64,000 nt of DNA, taken from NCBI GenBank assembly GCA_028554795.2, contig CM068838.1, positions 89,581,944 through 89,645,943 of the forward strand. Reading direction: 5' to 3'. Positions 15,274 to 63,001 of the stretch are shown here, piece by piece. Made by a program: the position numbers and the translations under genes. Position 1 is the first letter of the stretch. Each line of letters begins with the position of its first letter. The notes beneath the pieces are model-generated. The model did not search any database and was not told the DNA's origin. It was given only the letters and a program-made list of their open reading frames with translations. This DNA comes from Sinohyriopsis cumingii (taxonomy: Eukaryota > Mollusca > Bivalvia > Unionida > Unionidae).

Positions 15274-15699
15274 GTAAGTAGTATTACGTATGTAGTCATT
15301 TCTGGTTAAATTTGTACAAATATTTCATTTATATCTATTAATAGACATTTCTTGTATATTAAATTAATATTTACTTATCGTTCTGGTCTTTACTTGTAGC
15401 AGGAAAACATGAACAACAATCATCACCGCCTTTTCTGAGTTTATTGAGGTATGTTTTAGCTTCAGCTTAAAGAAATAAGAATACCATTGTGATTTAAAAA
15501 CTATAACATATTGATGGGAGAGTTGGAAATATAATAGTTAATCAATACAATTGGACTGGAAGAATGTGAGGTATATATTGTATCATGATTCTTGATTCCT
15601 TCTTCAAGTTTTCCACTAAAAGCTCAAATTGTTGTGCATTGACACTACCACGATAGTGTACCACATGATTAACACTGTCTCTGGACATGAAGAGTATGC

Positions 15700-17650
15700 A
15701 TATATAGCACCACTGAAGTCTGCCACAGGCGATACCATCCACAACAAGGGCAAGCAGATGGAGCGTTGGGTGGAATACTACTCCGAACTGTACTCCAAAG
15801 AGAACCACGTGACCAATGACGCCCTCAACGCCACTGAAACCCTCCCTCTCGTGGCCGAACTGGACGAGAAACCTACTGTAGACGAACTAAAGAAGGCCTT
15901 AGAGAAACTGTCCCTAGGTAAAGCCCCAGGGAAGGATGGCATCACAGCAGAACTCATCAAGTGCGGATGTAGCGTGCTGCTCACACACCTGCACGACCTC
16001 CTCTGCCAGTGCTGGGACGAGGGTGCAGTGCCTCAGGACATGAGAGACGCTAACTTCATAACCCTGTACAAGAACAAGGGCGACAGAAGCGACTGCAACA
16101 ACTACAGTGCATTTCACTTCTCAGCATCGTGGGTAAAGTTTTCGCACGAGTCATCCTGAACAGACTGCAGACGCTTGCTGACAGAGTTTACCCAGAGTCG
16201 CAATGCGGGTTCCGCGCAGAGACGTCCACAATCGACATGATTTTCTCTGTCAGGCAACTGCAGGAAAAATGCAGAGAACAACACAGACCCCTCTTCCTGG
16301 CCTTTATGGACATCACCAAGGCATTCGATCTGGTCAGCAGAGACGGACTCTTCACAATCCTGGCGAAAATTGGTTGCCATCCAAAGCTGCTAAGCATGAT
16401 CCAGTCCTTCCACGATGACACGAAAGGCACAGTGCAGTACAATGGCTCAACATCCGACACCTTTGACATCCGCAGTGGAATTAAACAGGGCTGTGTCCTT
16501 GCCCCCACGCTCTTCGGCATCTTCTTCGCAGTCTTGCTCAAGCACGCCTTTGGGACGTCCACAGAAGGGATTTACCTGCACACACGATCAGACGGCAGAC
16601 TGTTCAACCTGGCACGACTGAAGGCAAAGAGCAAAGTGCGTGAAGTAACCATCAGGGACATGCTCTTCGCAGACGATGCTGCTCTATCCACCCACACAGA
16701 AGCTGAGCTTCAGCGCCTGATGAACCGCTTTGCTAAAGCATGCGATGAGTTTGGGATAACCATAAGCCTAACGAAAACAAACGTGATGGTTCAGGACGCG
16801 GACCCCCCCCCCCAAGCATCATCATCAACAACTACGAACTTGAGGTGGTGAGTCAGTTCATGTACCTCGGTTCTACCATCACCAACAACCTCTCACTCGA
16901 TGCTGAGCTCAACAAGCGGATCGGAAAGGCATCAACAACTCTCTCCAGGTTGTCGCCGATAGTGTGGAACAACAGCATGCTGACCCTGAACACTAAGATC
17001 ACCGTGTACCGCGCATGCGTTCTAAGCACTCTCATGTACGCCAGTGAAACCTGGACTCTGTACGCCTCACAAGAGAAAAGACTGAACGCCTTTCACATGC
17101 GATGCCCCCGACGCATACTCGGGATCACCTGGAGCGATCGAGTAACAAACAACGAGGTGCTCGAGTGTGCCAAGATTCACAGCATGATCACACTCCTGCG
17201 CCAACGCCGCATCAGATGGCTGGGCCATGTACGTCGGATGGATGACGGACGGATCCCAAAAGACATTCTTTATTCGGAACTCGCCTCTGGCAAAAGGTCG
17301 ATCGGACGGCCACATCTCCGCTTCAAGGATGTCTGTAAGCACGACATGAAATCCCTTGATATCGATGTCAACACCTGGGAAGAGCTCGCTCTAGACAGAT
17401 CAAGCTGGCAACATGCTCTGATCACTGGTCTGAAAGCCGGAGAGGACAAGCAACGCTTGCTAGCTGATGAAAGACGATCGCAGAGGAAGAAGAAGCAGCT
17501 CCAACTAACACCTGACGCAACCTTCAAGTGCAGCAAGTTCAGCATGGACTGCCATTCCCGCACTGGACTACTTAGCCACAGCAGACGCTGCACAACCACC
17601 AACCGGGACTTCTCTCATGGGCGCAGTTCCATCGTCTCTCGAGACTAACG
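15700..17650 (+). mobile_element. Non-LTR retrotransposon, 5'-truncated, reverse transcriptase and C-terminal region
   Basis: Three frames join into one LINE protein. The first (to about 16110) has KPTVDELKKALEKL, GKAPGKDGITAELIKCG and DANFITLYKNKGDRSDCNNY. The second (16104-16806) has SLLSIVGKVFARVILNRLQ, ESQCGFR, FMDITKAFDLV (motif A), GIKQGCVLAPTLFGIFFA and the catalytic FADD at about 16665-16676, where YADD is more usual. The third (16806-17648) has FMYLGSTITNNLSLDAELNK, RQRRIRWLGHVRRMDDGR and a C-terminal finger-like [14 protein letters not shown] with one expected Cys replaced by Phe. Frameshifts lie near 16108 and in the C-run at 16801-16812. There is no endonuclease domain, so it is 5'-truncated and dead. 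The clade is uncertain (RTE/jockey-like). Confidence 0.92.
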
Positions 17651-18060: not shown

Positions 18061-19117
18061 TACTCGCCATTTGCGTTAATAGTCACATGACTTTACAACT
18101 GTCAAACAAAGACATCGGAAGTCCAATAGTCATGTGATATCAACAACAAACTCCTTTTTAATGCCTTTGTACAAAGTTTAAATTATATTAAATTAAAGTC
18201 TCAAACCTTTCATAAAAACCAGAAAGAACATATAATTATCAACATATTTATTTCGAGAACAACTACAAGAAACTTGGCCAGTCTGATTCATCAACAGAGT
18301 TGTCTGGTTGCCTGCTTCGTATGCTTCCTGCGTGAGAGAGCACATGTCAACGTGGTAGTCACGTGATACAACAAAACTCCGGAAGTAGGTCTCGGAATAA
18401 ATATAGAGAATTTTGTGCTCTTTCGTTTTTGTATTTTTATTGCAACCAGTATACGACTTTCATTTAATATTTTTTTCTACAATATTTGAAAATGACGGAT
18501 GTGAGATTATGTGTGCTCGTGCGATTAGCAATCGAAATCGCTAGTACCAGCTCAAATTTCATCAGCGCATTAGTTTTTTCGTCTTTCAGCAGATTGAAGA
18601 CATAACGATTTAATACTCGCATTTTCTGAGAAAATAAATAATTTTCATCTAAATTTTATGCAGGTATAACTCGATTTAAAAACGTTTAAGTTTGCTGGCC
18701 CATCCGCCAAGTGGCTATGCTTTAACGCCACCATGTTCTCTTCTTGTGATGCTAGACTGGTTTTCATACCTTCCATATAAAAAAAAGATACGGATATCGT
18801 AATGTCTCTGAAACAAAAAGTCTACGAGAGAAATCTAATCCTCTGAGCGTTTGGATTGTCTCAACAAATATATTTATGGCAAGCACCCAAATGATCTATA
18901 CTGTAACCTCCTAATAATGTTCTGGTTAGAACTCGATAAATTTAACTCACGATCAGATCAGTTACGACACAATTACGTAATTGTTTCGGGCGTCAAACTG
19001 TGGAGGAAAATTCCCTGGATTTTCCCGACTTTCGTCAATATTTGCAAAATTCAAGGACTTTTCACGGTCGGGAAAAAAATTATCATTTCTTCCGACTTTT
19101 GTCCCGATTTCCTGATT
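18061..19117. other. No gene recognised
   Basis: Intronic sequence of the pseudogene with no supported feature. The open frame at 18851-19282 runs into the tetranucleotide repeat and is not a gene. Confidence 0.4.
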
Positions 19118-19188
19118 ATATGTATGCATGTATGTATGTATGTATGTATGTATGTATGTATGTATGTATGTATGTATGTATGCATGTA

Positions 19189-19259
<71 letters not shown>

Positions 19260-19272
19260 ATGCGTGCGTGTG
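19118..19272. repeat. (ATGT)n(GT)n(GCGT)n compound microsatellite
   Basis: ATGT units, then about 45 bases of GT, then GCGT units. The poly-Cys/Val/Met frames over it are artefacts. Confidence 0.95.
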
Positions 19273-19409
19273 TTTTATATAAATAAAACAAAATTTATTA
19301 CAAATGGAAACCTGTGTCTTAGTTCAAAGGATTGCAAAATCTGTGAGTGTGTCATGCAACTGTTGCTCTGTTTCCTTTATTCGTTATCTGTTATTCTTCT
19401 TTTTTCCAG

Positions 19410-20540
19410 TGATGGAGAAGCCTGAAACCATGTAGCAGCCTTACTCTACGGAAAGTTGTCATGACAGAAAAAAGAAAGACAGACTTGATGCTTCAACCTC
19501 AAAAGGGTGCCTCTGGAACAAGCCACGAAGCCAGAAAGTTAAGTCCAAAACAAGACCTGATATTCAGGAAACAAACATTCTGTGGATCCATCAAAGAAAA
19601 AAGCTTTCAAACTTCTGATGCACAAATATGAAACATACAAAATACACCAAAACCTGTAACTATGCAGACCTTAAGTGATAAACTTCAAAAGTGTAATCCA
19701 CATGCAGGATTTTCAGTTGCTCATTCTGAAACACTTGAAATATATAATTTTATGTACCATAATGGTGTTAACTTAAACATTTATGAACAAACAGTTGCAT
19801 TTTAAAGTTACCTGTAAAAACTTTCTGTAAGTGCAGATGACTCCAAAGCTATTGAGTTAAGAACGAGAAAACAGTCCAAGAGCACAGAAAGGAATGTTGC
19901 TAGAAGTGGCCCATTAACTTCGTCAAATTTTTGGATGATTTGTAAAAAGCTACCCAACACTCCACCCAACTCCGTCTTAAATATAGTCATGGGATACTCA
20001 AATTTCACATGTGATAGTATGAAATAGGGCAACAGTCATGAAGCAGCTGCACGTAGGTTTTATGTTAAGGACTGACTCTCAAAGCACAATGGGATATCGG
20101 TAAGATTGTCTGGATTTATAATCAATCCCAAATTTCCACACCTGGGTTCAAGTCCCGATGGACTAGTTAATTGTTCTCTTTGTGAAGATTCAAATAGAAT
20201 TTTAGAAATTAAGTGCCCTTATAAATATAGGACCATGTCACCAATTCTGGCAGCAAAATGCAGGGACTTCTTTTGTACTGAGCGTGACAGACAGTTACTA
20301 TTAAAAAGAAGTCATTCATATTATTATCAGATGCAGGGACAACTTGCAATTTCACAATATAAATGGTGTGACTTTTATGTGTGGACCGTAGAAGTACGTT
20401 AAGTTGAACATATTTTTTTGACATTGAATTTTGTGAAAGTATGGTGGCCAAGTTGAATGAGCTTTACCTCTATGCAGTTGTCCCTGAATTATTTACAAGA
20501 CGTATTAAACGTGGGAAGGATTTAAAACCATTTAGGTGAT
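19410..20540 (+). pseudogene. SAP-SWIM-YqaJ family gene, exon B (SWIM end and YqaJ nuclease domain), broken
   Basis: After the acceptor the frame reads DGEA-stop-NHVAALLYGKLS. This completes a SWIM finger, but the third zinc ligand Cys is a TGA stop. A frameshift leads to DRKKKDRLDASTSKGCLWNK. The YqaJ-type nuclease/recombinase region follows: DSKAIELRTRKQSK, GPLTSSNFWMICKKLP, FIINPKFPHLGSSPDGLV and ILEIKCPYKYRTMSPILAAK. It continues with RSHSYYYQMQGQLAIS and WCDFYVWTV, ending KRGKDLKPF before a stop near 20540. The catalytic Asp of SPDG and the Glu-Lys pair of EIK are still present. Several stops and shifts (for example near 19455, 19800, 20026 and 20400) make it a pseudogene. Confidence 0.85.
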
Positions 20541-31106: not shown

Positions 31107-32540
31107 AATAATAATAATAATAATAATCGTCGACGTCGTCTTCATCATCACATGGAAGAATATTATTATTAAATCTTGGTGAAACTCCGTACTCAATGGA
31201 AAACGGAGAAATCATCTATGAGTAAAGGTATGTAAAACAAAACTCTGAGAGGTTTACTTCAAGGTCTACAATACCGTATTACGTATGAAGCATCATAAAA
31301 TTAATTTTTGTGTAATAAACTCAGAAAGCGTGCTTTAAAAACGCATATTTTAACTCACAGAAGAGAAAATGAAGATAATTAGTGCACACATGATCGCTGT
31401 TTTACGGAAAATGCTCAATATTTTTTTCTCCAAATTCTTCCGGTTATAAGTTGGATTTTTGTATGTGGCGTACTATCGGGAGTCCCTCAAGCCAAGCTTA
31501 TGTGATGATAATGGCTGAATTTAGTGATAACTCTCGCGAAATTTTCGGTTGATTAGTCATTCTTATCTTCGTCTTTTCAAAAAGGTAAGGCCTTAGAAGA
31601 CAACCAACGTAAAACGATTCTGATCTCAATGAGGTTAGGACGTACACATTTCGGCCTGAACGAGACAAACATCGTGTGCATTACGTCAATACTTCCACGT
31701 CTCTCTCATTCAATTATATAAATCTGGGAATGATTTGGCGAGACCACTATTGTGCACCTATTTAATTAGCTTTATGATGGAACTTAAATTATGACGGTTA
31801 AAGTGCAACAAATAATCCCGACCAAGTTTTTAGATAGACTATAAATTCTACTAGTGATTGAGCTACAAAGCGGGCAAAACAGCCATTCTTTTCATAACTA
31901 GCGCACAGTATTGAAGAACACCTTCATTGTTATGATATGCATCATCTCATCGCACTGAAAGAATCCTAGACGAATTTCACATGTCCCTCTTAACCTTTCT
32001 CTTATTTCAATGTTGGTATGGAAAAATCATCGCCTGTACGTCTACGGCAAGGAGCAGGCTATTACAGTAGCCTTGTTGCTGGTTAAGAAGCCCTTGGTGG
32101 GAGAACTCCTGTCCTTAAATAAATACACAATTAATCAATGACTCAATCTGATATTTCCATCAATCTGTTTGCAAATAAGGCAATGAAATGGGCGTATTCA
32201 AAACAAGCATTAGTAGTGCATTTAACCCCAATGTATATTTAGTTCCTGGTTTGTTTGTAAAACAAATATGCGCTTGAGAGTTATTTTTCAGACAGATACG
32301 GACTTTAACACTCTAATAGCACAAAAAGTAGTAAAACTTCAAAGTTGGTATCTTTATTCCATCTCTATAAAACCCGTTTCTCTCTCAACTGGTACATATA
32401 ATAATGCCCATAAAACTCATGTTACTCAGTCTGTTGGAATATATGACAATGACAAAAAAGTGACAAACTCCGATATTGTATCTGAAGATTTGTTTAAAAA
32501 AATATATCAAATGTACTCTGTGAATACAGTGTAGATGTTT
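30139..32540. other. Intron 2 sequence: poly(A) and (CAA)n(TAA)n, no gene
   Basis: A nearly pure A run at 30884-30912 and a compound trinucleotide array at 31071-31127 are the only clear features. The short frames here are unsupported. Confidence 0.5.
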
Positions 32541-32556
32541 TAAAACTTTAAAGGTG

Positions 32557-32704
32557 ATGTATGTATGTATGTATGCATGCATGTACGTACGTACGTACGT
32601 GTGCGTGCGTGTGTGTGTGTATGTATGTATGCATGTACGTACGTACGTACGTATGTATGTATGTATGTATGTATGTATGTATGTATGTATGTATGTATGT
32701 ATGT
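32557..32704. repeat. (ATGT)n / (ACGT)n tetranucleotide array
   Basis: ATGT units with several ACGT and GCGT variants, ending about 16 bases from the TMEM26 exon 2 donor. It explains the Tyr/His/Thr-rich and Cys/Met/Tyr-rich frames on the two strands. Confidence 0.95.
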
Positions 32705-32720
32705 TTTCTGAAATTCTTAC

Positions 32721-32898
32721 TCCCAGTGCCTCTATGTTGACGCTAAGGTCCTCAGTAACAGTACTGAGGTTGGCCGATAGCTGTACAGTAGTGTTGAGAT
32801 TCTGTCTGAGCTGGATCCGACGCTCCATAGCATGTAGCTCAAGGAACCAGATCGCTGGCACCACGCTGCCCAGGTAGAAAAACACGCTGGGGCAAAAC
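32721..32898 (-). CDS. TMEM26: TMEM26 exon 2
   Basis: Residues 64-123. The acceptor tttttctaaag ends at 32899; the first base completes the Trp codon split at the end of exon 1, giving KWFCPSVFFYLGSVVPAIWF and then LELH. This aligns with the KWFSPAIFLY and PSLWLLELH region of vertebrate TMEM26. A third transmembrane segment lies at about 67-84. The following loop has two N-glycosylation sequons (NTT near residue 99, NLS near 107), as the vertebrate loop also does. The donor is ctggga|gtaaga at 32720. The longer open frame running into the tetranucleotide array is intron. Confidence 0.92.
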
Positions 32899-33082
32899 CT
32901 TTAGAAAAAGTAGATGTATTAACTGACTATCAATTTGCCAAGCCATAAATAAAAAAGAAAGAAAGAAAAGAAAAAAAAAGAAAGACTGGATGAGTTTCAT
33001 TTTCGCATTAAATTCATTTAGAGTGTTTTTACAATCAGTTGAGCCACAAACAAGTCATACAACTGATACAAATTATTTGTGT

Positions 33083-56650: not shown

Positions 56651-57135
56651 ATGTATGTATGTATGTATGTATGTATGACTGACTGACTTTCTTTATTTCC
56701 TGTTAAGAAAAGATTTCATTCAGTTAATTTTTCGTTAATACAAAAAAGATAGGAACATAGCTTGACATTAATGGACTTACAGTATACTATATATATACAT
56801 ATATATACATACATACATACACATACATACATATGTATATATACACATATATACACACATATACATATATAAACACATACACACATACATATATTCATAC
56901 ATATATACATACATACACACACATACACATACACATATATACATATATACACATATGCATACATATATATACACATATATACATATACATACACACATAT
57001 GCATGTATGTATGTATGTATTTATGTATGTATGTATGTATGTATGTATGTGTGTGTGTATGTATGTATGTATGTATGTATGTATGTATGTATGTATGTAT
57101 GTATGTATGTGTGTATGTATGTGTGTATAAATGAA
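56651..57135. repeat. Tetranucleotide complex: (ATGT)n, (ACAT)/(ATAC)n, then (ATGT)n
   Basis: ATGT at 56651-56686; ACAT/ATAC-type units at about 56795-57000; then ATGT/GTGT units at 57001-57130. The last two blocks are complementary in sense, so the region can fold on itself. The long Tyr/Ile/His/Thr and Cys/Met/Tyr/Val frames are artefacts. Confidence 0.93.
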
Positions 57136-58500
57136 CGTATGTTTAAGAAAGACGACTTGTCGATTAAGCAGGCACTGAACCATTCCCGCTATCACAATAT
57201 ACACAGCGTAATATATTGTTCAATCTGCAAGCAGTAGACATGTTTCGAATCAAACTTCAGATTTTGTCGACTATACTAGGCTGTTCCATCCATCAGGGCG
57301 TTACCTCACCCGTGTAATCACTTTCAGACATTTCTTATGTACCTGTATATTTTAGTATAATGTTGGAGTATCCAATAAAGTGGCACGGTGTCCATTCTTG
57401 ATTCGCTAAATCTGAAAATATAACTTTTTAAAGGAAATCTAACAAAAGAATAAGGATTTCAAATCATTGTGAACGTGCATTTTGTAGAGAGAAGGCGTAT
57501 GCCGATTAGAATCCATCATTTTTGCTCAGCGCAGAAAGCCTCATGCGAAATAAAGGATGTCAGTACAAGTATTAGAAAACCATATGCACCACACGTTTTC
57601 CTCACCGCTTTTTTTTCAGGTGAACATGTCAGTTTATCCTAATTGTTACAGTTTTTATGTGTTTGTTAAGTATAAAAGTCTATATAGGCCATTGTTTGCT
57701 TCTGCAGCCATTCGTTGTTGACTTGCTGGAATGAAATCTAACTCTTTTCTGCTTGATATTATTGACTATTTATTTACGTTAAAACAAGATTAATGACTGC
57801 AATTTGTTGGGGTCTTTTATCCGTGTCTAGTTTCGTCATCAAAGACATATTTTACATATCTTTCAAACAGTATTAAAGACGATAGTACCAATCTTGATAG
57901 AGCAATCCTGATGATATCGTTTGAACTCTAATCAAAGATGCATTAACGGAATCTGCCTAACACAAACTCTAACAAATAATAATAAATTATAACAGTTTCG
58001 TCTTTCAGTACATAATGTAATTCCTATTTCTCTCGTACATATACTAATAACAGACATTTGCTTGGCATTATAAAAACAAAAACTAAGAACTAAAATGGAC
58101 GCCTTCAAAAGTATTACAGCAGACGAATTTACTTTTAGTTATTATTATATAGTTTCGGTGAAAGTGATATGTAATCTGTTGGTATCGCTTCAAAAGAATA
58201 AAAAGCCTGAGTGAAGTTCTTATTATCAAAAGTTAAGGAGCATATGGAAGCATTAGAGAAGTCGTAAAATTTTGGATAAACTCTTGTAATGTTGAAACAT
58301 GATATTGATTTTATAGGTGCATGTGAGTCATCTCCCTTATACAACATCATCTATGTTTAAACCTTAATTTTGATTATGTCAGCATGCGTCTGCTATGCAT
58401 GTCTGAATCAATGTATCTGCCATTGCCAATGTCAAGGTTGGCTTTACAAATATGTAGTGACGTAGTAATAGAACGATATAAATATGCTTAATAGCATTTG
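57136..58500. other. No gene recognised
   Basis: Intergenic AT-rich sequence with no supported feature. Confidence 0.4.
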
Positions 58501-60601: not shown

Positions 60602-60720
60602 CACTGGACAACAAATTTTTACAAAAGTCATGTTACTGAAATAAAATTAGTCAATTCTTATCAATTTTTATGTGCTGAACACGAATATGACAGTCAAATT
60701 GCAAAATTGGCTCTAGTTTT
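60602..60720 (+). repeat. Left terminal inverted repeat of the 2.4-kb transposon
   Basis: Outer 12 bp plus a conserved inner block near 60668-60720. The middle part is more diverged and differs in length from the right end by about ten bases. Confidence 0.8.
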
Positions 60721-60818
60721 TTTGTAATCTGCAAGAAATTAATGTTTACATAACGAAATGCATTCCAATAGTAAAAGGTCAACTGTAATAGCCTACCTAT
60801 AAAAAATCAAGTCATTGA

Positions 60819-62507
60819 CTACATCTTAGATTTCTTCGCCTGTCTCTTGTACAGCTGTTCGGGAGCATCTCTGAGGAGTGTCCAGCAGTAGTCAGCCAGC
60901 ATTGTAGTGGACCATTTTCCCTGGTATCTTTGTTCCATTGTTGCGATATCTTGATGAAAACGTTCGCCGTGTTCATCACTAACAATACCACAGTTGCTAG
61001 GAAAGAAATCCAAATGGGAATGAAGGAAGTGAATCTTTAGAGACATATTGCAGCCAAGTTTCTTATACTTCATCAACATGTCTTCTACTAGTTCCTTATA
61101 GTTTTCTGCCCTAACATTTCCGAGGAAGTTTGCAGAAACTAGGCGAAAAGCATTCCATGCTTGTTTCGCGTCACCTTCCAGCAAGTTGTTGAACCGGTCA
61201 TCTTTGAAAAGCTCTCGAATCTGAGGACCCACAAAAACTCCCTCTTTAATCTTTGCTTCGCTGAGTCGAGGGAATTTTTCATGCAGGTATCGGAATGCTG
61301 GCAAAGTCCGGTCAATGGCTTTCACGAAGTTCTTCATCAAACCTAGTTTGATGTGAAGGGGTGGTAGCAAGATTTTCTGAGCCTCAACCAGAGCTGGGTG
61401 TTGGATATTCTTCTCTCCAATGGCTACATTCTGCCTGTGAGTCCATTCCTTCCTCATGTAGTGCATTTCCCTTGCTCGGCTATCCCACTCGCATAAGAAA
61501 CACATGTATTTTGTATATCCTTGCTGCAGTCCCATTAAAAGGGCAACTACCTTCAAATCACCACAGAGGTGCCAGCTGTACTTGTTATACTCAATGGAAT
61601 TCAGTAGCTGCCTTAAGTTATCGTATGTCTCTTTCATGTGGACAGCATACGCTACTGGAATAGATGGAAGAATGTTTCCATTGTGCAAAAGCACAGCCTT
61701 GAGACTCAGTTTCGAAGAGTCCACAAATAGTCTCCATTCTTGTGGGTCATGAGTGATTTTTAAAGCATTCATGAGGCCCTCAATATCGGAACAGAATATC
61801 AGATTACTTTCCTTTCTGAAGAAAGGCTCCAATTGCTGGTGGCGCTTTCGATATGCAGTAATTGTGACATCTTCTTCTAGAAGATTCCATTGTTGGAGTC
61901 TTGATCCTAGCAATTCTGCCTTGTTCTTTGATAAGTCCAAATCACGAATCAGGTCATTTAGTTCTTCCTGTGTTATTCTGTGTGGGGTTGATGATGCACC
62001 ACAGTGAAAATCTGGATCACTGCATGCTGATGGACCAGGAGAAGAACAGGTCGACTCACCTTTGTCTTCGTCAGATGAATCAAGAGAATATTCTGCTGGA
62101 TGTTCTGGAATAGGAAGTCCCTCACCATGTGGAACTGGTCTCAATGCAGACGGAATGTTTGGGTAGACTATTCTCGACTTCTTTCGCTTCGTTATTCCGC
62201 CGGAAAGAGGAGGAACCAAGCAGAAGTAACAGTCATTTAGGTGGTTGCTTGGCTCTCTCCACACCATTGGGACTGCAAACGGCATTGATGACCTTTTGCA
62301 ATTCAACCACTGTGAAAGCTGTGTTGTACATGTAGCACAGCATATATGCGGAGCCCAAGGTTTGTCTTGGTCACCAACCTTGCATCCGAAGTAAAGATGA
62401 TATGCCTTCTTCACTTGAGAATTGATACTTTTCTTCTGGTTGGCAAATGTCACTTCCCCACAAATATAGCAAAAATTGTCCGCGGTATTAACACACTTTC
62501 GAGGCAT
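60819..62507 (-). CDS. Orphan-family protein, probable transposase of the 2.4-kb element
   Basis: Intact frame of 562 codons from ATG 62507 (gcaATGc) to the stop at 60819; the basic start MPRKC is typical of the family. N-terminal zinc-ligand candidates: C5, C13/C16 (CYIC), H54, C56/C57/C60 (HICCATC), C93/C96 (CYFC). An acidic/Ser linker spans about 138-175. A helical region (about 180-240) includes LLGSRLQQWNLL. The larger domain contains WRLFVDSSKLSLKAVLLHNG (about 258-277), HLCGDLKVVALLMGLQQGYT (about 313-332), CFLCEWDSRAR (336-346), PPLHIKLGLMKNFVKAI, and HSHLDFFPSNCG followed by VSDEHGERFHQDI (about 497-521). D263, D317 and E512 or E515 are candidate acidic catalytic residues; this is inference. 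I know near-identical proteins as uncharacterised multi-copy genes in cnidarians, aphids and other invertebrates. The TIRs around it suggest a transposase. Confidence 0.85.
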   Translation of the reverse strand: MPRKCVNTADNFCYICGEVTFANQKKSINSQVKKAYHLYFGCKVGDQDKPWAPHICCATCTTQLSQWLNCKRSSMPFAVPMVWREPSNHLNDCYFCLVPPLSGGITKRKKSRIVYPNIPSALRPVPHGEGLPIPEHPAEYSLDSSDEDKGESTCSSPGPSACSDPDFHCGASSTPHRITQEELNDLIRDLDLSKNKAELLGSRLQQWNLLEEDVTITAYRKRHQQLEPFFRKESNLIFCSDIEGLMNALKITHDPQEWRLFVDSSKLSLKAVLLHNGNILPSIPVAYAVHMKETYDNLRQLLNSIEYNKYSWHLCGDLKVVALLMGLQQGYTKYMCFLCEWDSRAREMHYMRKEWTHRQNVAIGEKNIQHPALVEAQKILLPPLHIKLGLMKNFVKAIDRTLPAFRYLHEKFPRLSEAKIKEGVFVGPQIRELFKDDRFNNLLEGDAKQAWNAFRLVSANFLGNVRAENYKELVEDMLMKYKKLGCNMSLKIHFLHSHLDFFPSNCGIVSDEHGERFHQDIATMEQRYQGKWSTTMLADYCWTLLRDAPEQLYKRQAKKSKM

Positions 62508-62620
62508 TGCTGTTCTTTATTGTACGTAAATGGATAAAATAATAAGTTTTATGTAACAGTAGCTTGAACTGTCTCGCACAACGTCTAAAATATTTTAAAT
62601 GCTGAACCTATCTGATTGGG

Positions 62621-62752
62621 CTTTATATAGTACACTGCTTACGTCAGCTTCAGCAGCCGCCTGGCATTAGTATAATAGGCCTACACATGTATAGTACACT
62701 GCTGACGTCAACTTACTTCAGCAGCCGCATGGCATTAGTATTGCATTGCATC
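62621..62752 (-). promoter_or_regulatory. Candidate promoter of the transposon gene: TATA box and duplicated CRE-like block
   Basis: On the minus strand CTATATAAAG (62630-62621) lies about 115 bases before the ATG. Upstream is a tandem duplication of about 65 bp (62624-62689 and 62690-62752) sharing tatagtacactgct, acgtca, cagcagccg and tggcattagtat. One copy has a full CRE palindrome tgacgtca at 62703-62710, the other a near match (ttacgtca). Use is inferred. Confidence 0.5.
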
Positions 62753-62891
62753 AGAAAATGATGCAATCAACTGTAGATGATGTGAGCATGATGGTATTAT
62801 GCAATGTTACATCATTATTCCGGATGTTGCTGCAGTCCTACTGGAGAAATTTACACAGTGAAACATAGAAAATGAGGTATATGAATATCTT

Positions 62892-63001
62892 CAAAACGAG
62901 AGCCAATACAAATTTTTCACGGTTATATTCGTGCTCGGCACACCAAAATACTACAGATTAGGGCCTTTTCAAGTCAGTAATGATTTCACTGTTGACCAGT
63001 G
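62892..63001 (-). repeat. Right terminal inverted repeat of the 2.4-kb transposon
   Basis: The complement begins CACTGGTCAACA at 63001 and contains the inner block gtgccgagcacgaatat near 62950-62934. It is followed outside by taa (63002-63004). Confidence 0.8.

Follow-up and report, generated by a model that had tools for sequence, protein, structure and literature searches.

Chapaev3 transposons (Merrow, Garfield, Conan) have CAC/GTG ends and produce a TWA target-site duplication (TSD) between A and T; their transposase, usually encoded in one exon, comprises 556 amino acids in Garfield_BM and bears the motifs C(2)C, LH and H(4)H (PMC4079192). The group, for which PMC4411706 cites Kapitonov and Jurka 2008, was placed with Transib and RAG1 in the same paper, and these groups are joined as CMCT in PMC12730594. 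Chapaev3 fragments were reported from a blowfly (PMC3630058), and the label CMC-Chapaev-3 is already in use in two fish genome papers. Here we analyzed a 64,000-nucleotide stretch of contig CM068838.1 from the bivalve Sinohyriopsis cumingii (the window), in which an element at positions 60602–63001 carries a transposase gene (Table 1). We conclude that this element is, with high probability, an intact autonomous cut-and-paste DNA transposon of the Chapaev3 type, within the CMC/Transib/RAG1 clan. The most fitting reading is a new family within this known group, the published families having been compared by description and not by sequence. The first-pass annotation of the same DNA had suggested that the family may define a CACTG group that is new or has been poorly described; this proposal was not supported, as the ends, the TWA-type duplication, the A/T flanks, the length and the motifs fitted Chapaev3 in its published description. 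A literature search found no paper pairing CACTGG with transposon, terminal inverted repeat (TIR) and TSD.

The architecture noted in the annotation, namely TAA on both sides, inverted ends, a second inner inverted block and a frame of 562 codons, was re-found throughout, with the inner block measuring about 57 bp instead of about 55 bp. The terminal repeats span 12 bp with one mismatch, and TGTTGACCAGTG forms the right end of the element, with 63001 as its last base. Local alignment of the subterminal inverted repeat gave a score of 45, whereas 2,000 single-base shuffles reached 29 at most. The two direct repeats are possibly promoter or transposase-binding repeats.

Copies of the element were sought in the genome from which the window was taken (2.9 Gb, 1,138 contigs). 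A first DNA search returned 36 matches, mostly full length and 99–100% identical, of which 35 kept both ends (CAC...GTG), while the first 8 bp of the 36th (L039/L049) were replaced. Together with 20 copies drawn from the best rows of a protein search, which hence had intact frames, and nine from a set of ten evenly stepped left ends, this yielded 64 two-ended copies; L039/L049 and the tenth left end, L100, stand outside this number. Perfect 3-bp duplications were found in 34/35, 19/20 and 9/9 copies, respectively (62/64 overall), confirming that the element pattern goes beyond chance. The examined copies were scattered over many contigs, and each had a duplication of its own save for two exceptions; among these copies we did not encounter what the annotation had named as contrary to its view, namely homologous genes in conserved synteny devoid of TIRs or duplications, or copies of the flanking repeat unrelated to the gene. 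The first exception, L048, carries a short deletion in its interior, and its outer triplets differ (TAA/TTA). The second, L088/L089, has no matching duplication, its right flank being common to a neighbouring inverted copy. In this region (L086–L089, G000:C18:54558949-54575428), two copies in opposite orientation lie ~14 kb apart with 12 identical right-flank bases, an arrangement suggestive of recombination between copies or of a local inverted duplication. TWA accounted for 44 of the 62 perfect duplications (18 were other triplets), and A at position –4 and T at position +4 occurred in 49 and 52 of the 64 copies, respectively (the last nine counted by eye). The ATWAT target is a preference, not a rule. 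Furthermore, the joined flanks of L017 and L035 matched element-free related repeats without gaps across the junction and with a single target copy, these empty sites being paralogous sites at other loci. The joined flanks of L026 also matched L023, an alignment that was set aside because of its break at the junction.

The 36 matches were rejected as a copy number, since the search skips very common words and exact-word counts give thousands: there were 4,856 genome-wide occurrences of the exact 31-bp left end and 4,758 of a 35-mer from within the gene, and none of either reversed control. By arithmetic, about 10–12 Mb of the genome would consist of this element. Positions were known for the first 100 places per word, all of them on contig C1 and within its first 55 Mb. 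There, the 35-mer was present at the expected distance from 86 of the 100 listed left ends and absent from 14, and nine of the 95 listed internal matches up to 52.3 Mb were without a left end at the expected distance. When ten left ends at roughly even steps among the 100 were inspected, nine had a right end near 2,400 bp; the tenth, L100, belongs to the 14 without the 35-mer, and its right end was not where expected. Shortened copies may be among the remaining 13. On account of these proportions (86/100 and 9/10), most copies in the examined part of contig C1 look full length.

The 36 first-search copies, a non-random sample, differed from their majority sequence by a mean of 0.25%, and 141 of their 158 variable sites were private to one copy. 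Of the 36, 26 still had a frame of 560 codons or more. Changes in their coding sequence numbered 39 synonymous, 88 nonsynonymous and 6 stop, close to the neutral expectation of 24% synonymous, 71% nonsynonymous and 5% stop. Low divergence, private variants, kept frames and near-neutral coding changes are together the mark of a recent burst of element copies, and the earlier claim of a young copy was supported. A recent burst to thousands of near-identical copies is documented in one animal genome. The protein search revealed an internal stop in only one of 77 places scored out of 9,587 loose candidates, but this rate is uninformative on the average copy because the best candidates were the ones scored. 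The intact frame would also agree with a host gene, i.e., a domesticated transposase whose flanking repeats are incidental. Thousands of copies, the duplications (present in all but two of the 64 copies read) and post-insertion changes that look neutral, however, make this explanation exceedingly improbable.

Loose motif patterns matched 178 homologues unevenly (114 to 178 of 178), and an alignment of 86 sequences was used instead. D263, D317 and E512/E515 were invariant in this alignment, as were C336-x2-C339, L384-H385 and H493-x4-H498. The structure model predicted a RAG1/Transib-like core and found its best Protein Data Bank (PDB) matches in RAG1 and Transib, at 10–16% identity in structural alignments. 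The modelled protein looks like a DDE enzyme of the CMC/Transib kind, in line with the annotation's reading of the family as a transposase and with the catalytic positions that it had singled out for a structural check (D263, D317 and E512/E515). Searched against PDB sequences, the window protein and the full-length family profile had unrelated matches only (E of 1 or more), a viral structure library gave no match at E ≤ 0.001, and the family profile confirmed no relative in viral contigs or prokaryote genome contigs. Relatives occur in diverse animals, with frog, firefly and moth among the named hosts, and three named-host records are labelled uncharacterised or hypothetical; a second protein search with the moth relative P0103 as query listed no further named host. 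Our analysis offers a likely identity for a protein family with such labels and without a Pfam match, and the predicted structure sets a Chapaev3-type transposase beside Transib and RAG1, the antibody-gene-cutting enzyme.

Membership of CACTA/EnSpm was weighed as well. A tnp2-type transposase domain is characteristic of these elements. The window protein matched no Pfam family at E ≤ 10, and no tnp2-type family was among the 25 of 32 Pfam families listed for the 86 sequences in sequence-to-family searches. CACTA forms the core of CACTA/EnSpm terminal repeats (PMC1636069), and for PMC12730594, 3-bp duplications together with 5'-CAC..GTG-3' termini are compatible with EnSpm. Because our element satisfies this broader definition, its ends alone do not exclude EnSpm, and the CACT start and the 3-bp duplication point the same way. 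Nevertheless, with ends of CACTGG and not CACTA, the Pfam results above, and an ATWAT preference and protein size that suit Chapaev3, we regard this assignment as very unlikely.

The N-terminal domain was modelled as ZAD-like. ZAD is an arthropod dimerisation module of zinc-finger transcription factors. We tentatively propose that the N-terminal zinc domain of Chapaev3, the arthropod ZAD and the N-terminal zinc region of RAG1 might be the same domain, a possibility that we hold with some doubt. The RAG1_imp_bd profile matched 3 of 21 family members, the window protein not among them, with a best E of 0.087. An N-terminal profile had RAG1 chain 21wb_A as the lower of its two matches (E 1.6), with the Cys/His ligands in register. 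PMC4411706 describes an N-terminal 'Chapa' zinc domain that Chapaev3 and RAG1 have in common. Several results weigh against the link: an unrelated FYVE-domain chain outranked 21wb_A in the same search, hhalign of the N-terminal profile with a RAG1 fragment gave 3.3% probability and thus no support, and phmmer with the P0103 N-terminus matched no ZAD or RAG1 chain. Among the papers searched, none contained both whole words ZAD and RAG1; for part of the literature on the broader topic, titles and the opening lines of abstracts were considered. If true, one transposon-borne module would tie together insect transcription factors, Chapaev3 and the V(D)J recombinase, and would bear on the origin of the RAG1 non-core region, which is missing from Transib (PMC7204232).

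As a model of transposition, a transposase dimer would bind the terminal and subterminal repeats, with the N-terminal zinc domain probably serving dimerisation or end binding. Excision might follow RAG/Transib-type, hairpin-type chemistry, and insertion would occur through a 3-bp staggered cut at ATWAT.

Table 1. Features of the element (window positions unless stated otherwise).
Feature	Position	Strand	Basis or remark
Left TSD, TAA	60599-60601	.	read from sequence
Left TIR, CACTGGACAACA	60602-60613	+	read from sequence; element starts here
Left subterminal inverted repeat, about 57 bp	60664-60720	+	inverted-repeat alignment
Transposase gene, 562 codons, one frame	60822-62507	-	stop at 60819-60821; no lesions
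N-terminal Cys/His-rich domain, codons 1-143	62079-62507	-	modelled ZAD-like; weak RAG1 N-terminus profile match
Predicted RAG1/Transib-like core	residues ~175-555 of transposase	-	structure model and alignment
Two direct repeats, 25-26 bp, offset 64-68 bp	62626-62741	.	within element, upstream of transposase gene
Right subterminal inverted repeat	62893-62949	-	pairs with 60664-60720
Right TIR, CACTGGTCAACA on complement	62990-63001	-	read from sequence
Right TSD, TAA	63002-63004	.	read from sequence

Elsewhere in the window, overlapping open frames at 15620-17648 (+) resemble pieces of a non-LTR reverse transcriptase in translation, and simple-repeat tracts at 18839-19425, 32385-32900 and 56716-57237 yield open frames of repeating residues.

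Among the known systems, Transib resembles the element in the RAG1-like catalytic core fold predicted for its transposase. Its target duplication, however, is 5 bp long (PMC7204232), and the 3-bp duplication, the CACTGG ends and the absence of a second gene set our element apart from Transib and RAG1/RAG1L. With CACTA/EnSpm it has in common the CACT start, the 3-bp duplication and the wider clan, but neither the CACTA ends nor a tnp2-type domain match. A separate CMC-type lineage, new as a superfamily or as a major group beside Chapaev3, to which the likeness in ends, duplications and motifs would be coincidental, might be argued from the missing Pfam match, from a comparison resting on published descriptions and from the 18 of 62 duplications other than TWA. 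We consider it improbable, as every testable Chapaev3 diagnostic agrees in kind (ends, duplication, length, protein size, motifs, single frame). The Chapaev3-type assignment also has to accommodate two differences: TWA and the A/T flanks are preferences here, whereas PMC4079192 gives the flanks as constant, and our element is present in thousands of copies that are mostly full length where examined. It is alike in the CAC...GTG ends kept in 35 of the 36 first-search copies, a TWA-type duplication of 3 bp between A and T, a length of ~2.3–2.4 kb, a single-frame transposase of ~556–562 amino acids (562 here), a DDE triad accompanied by C(2)C, LH and H(4)H, and relatives in diverse animals.
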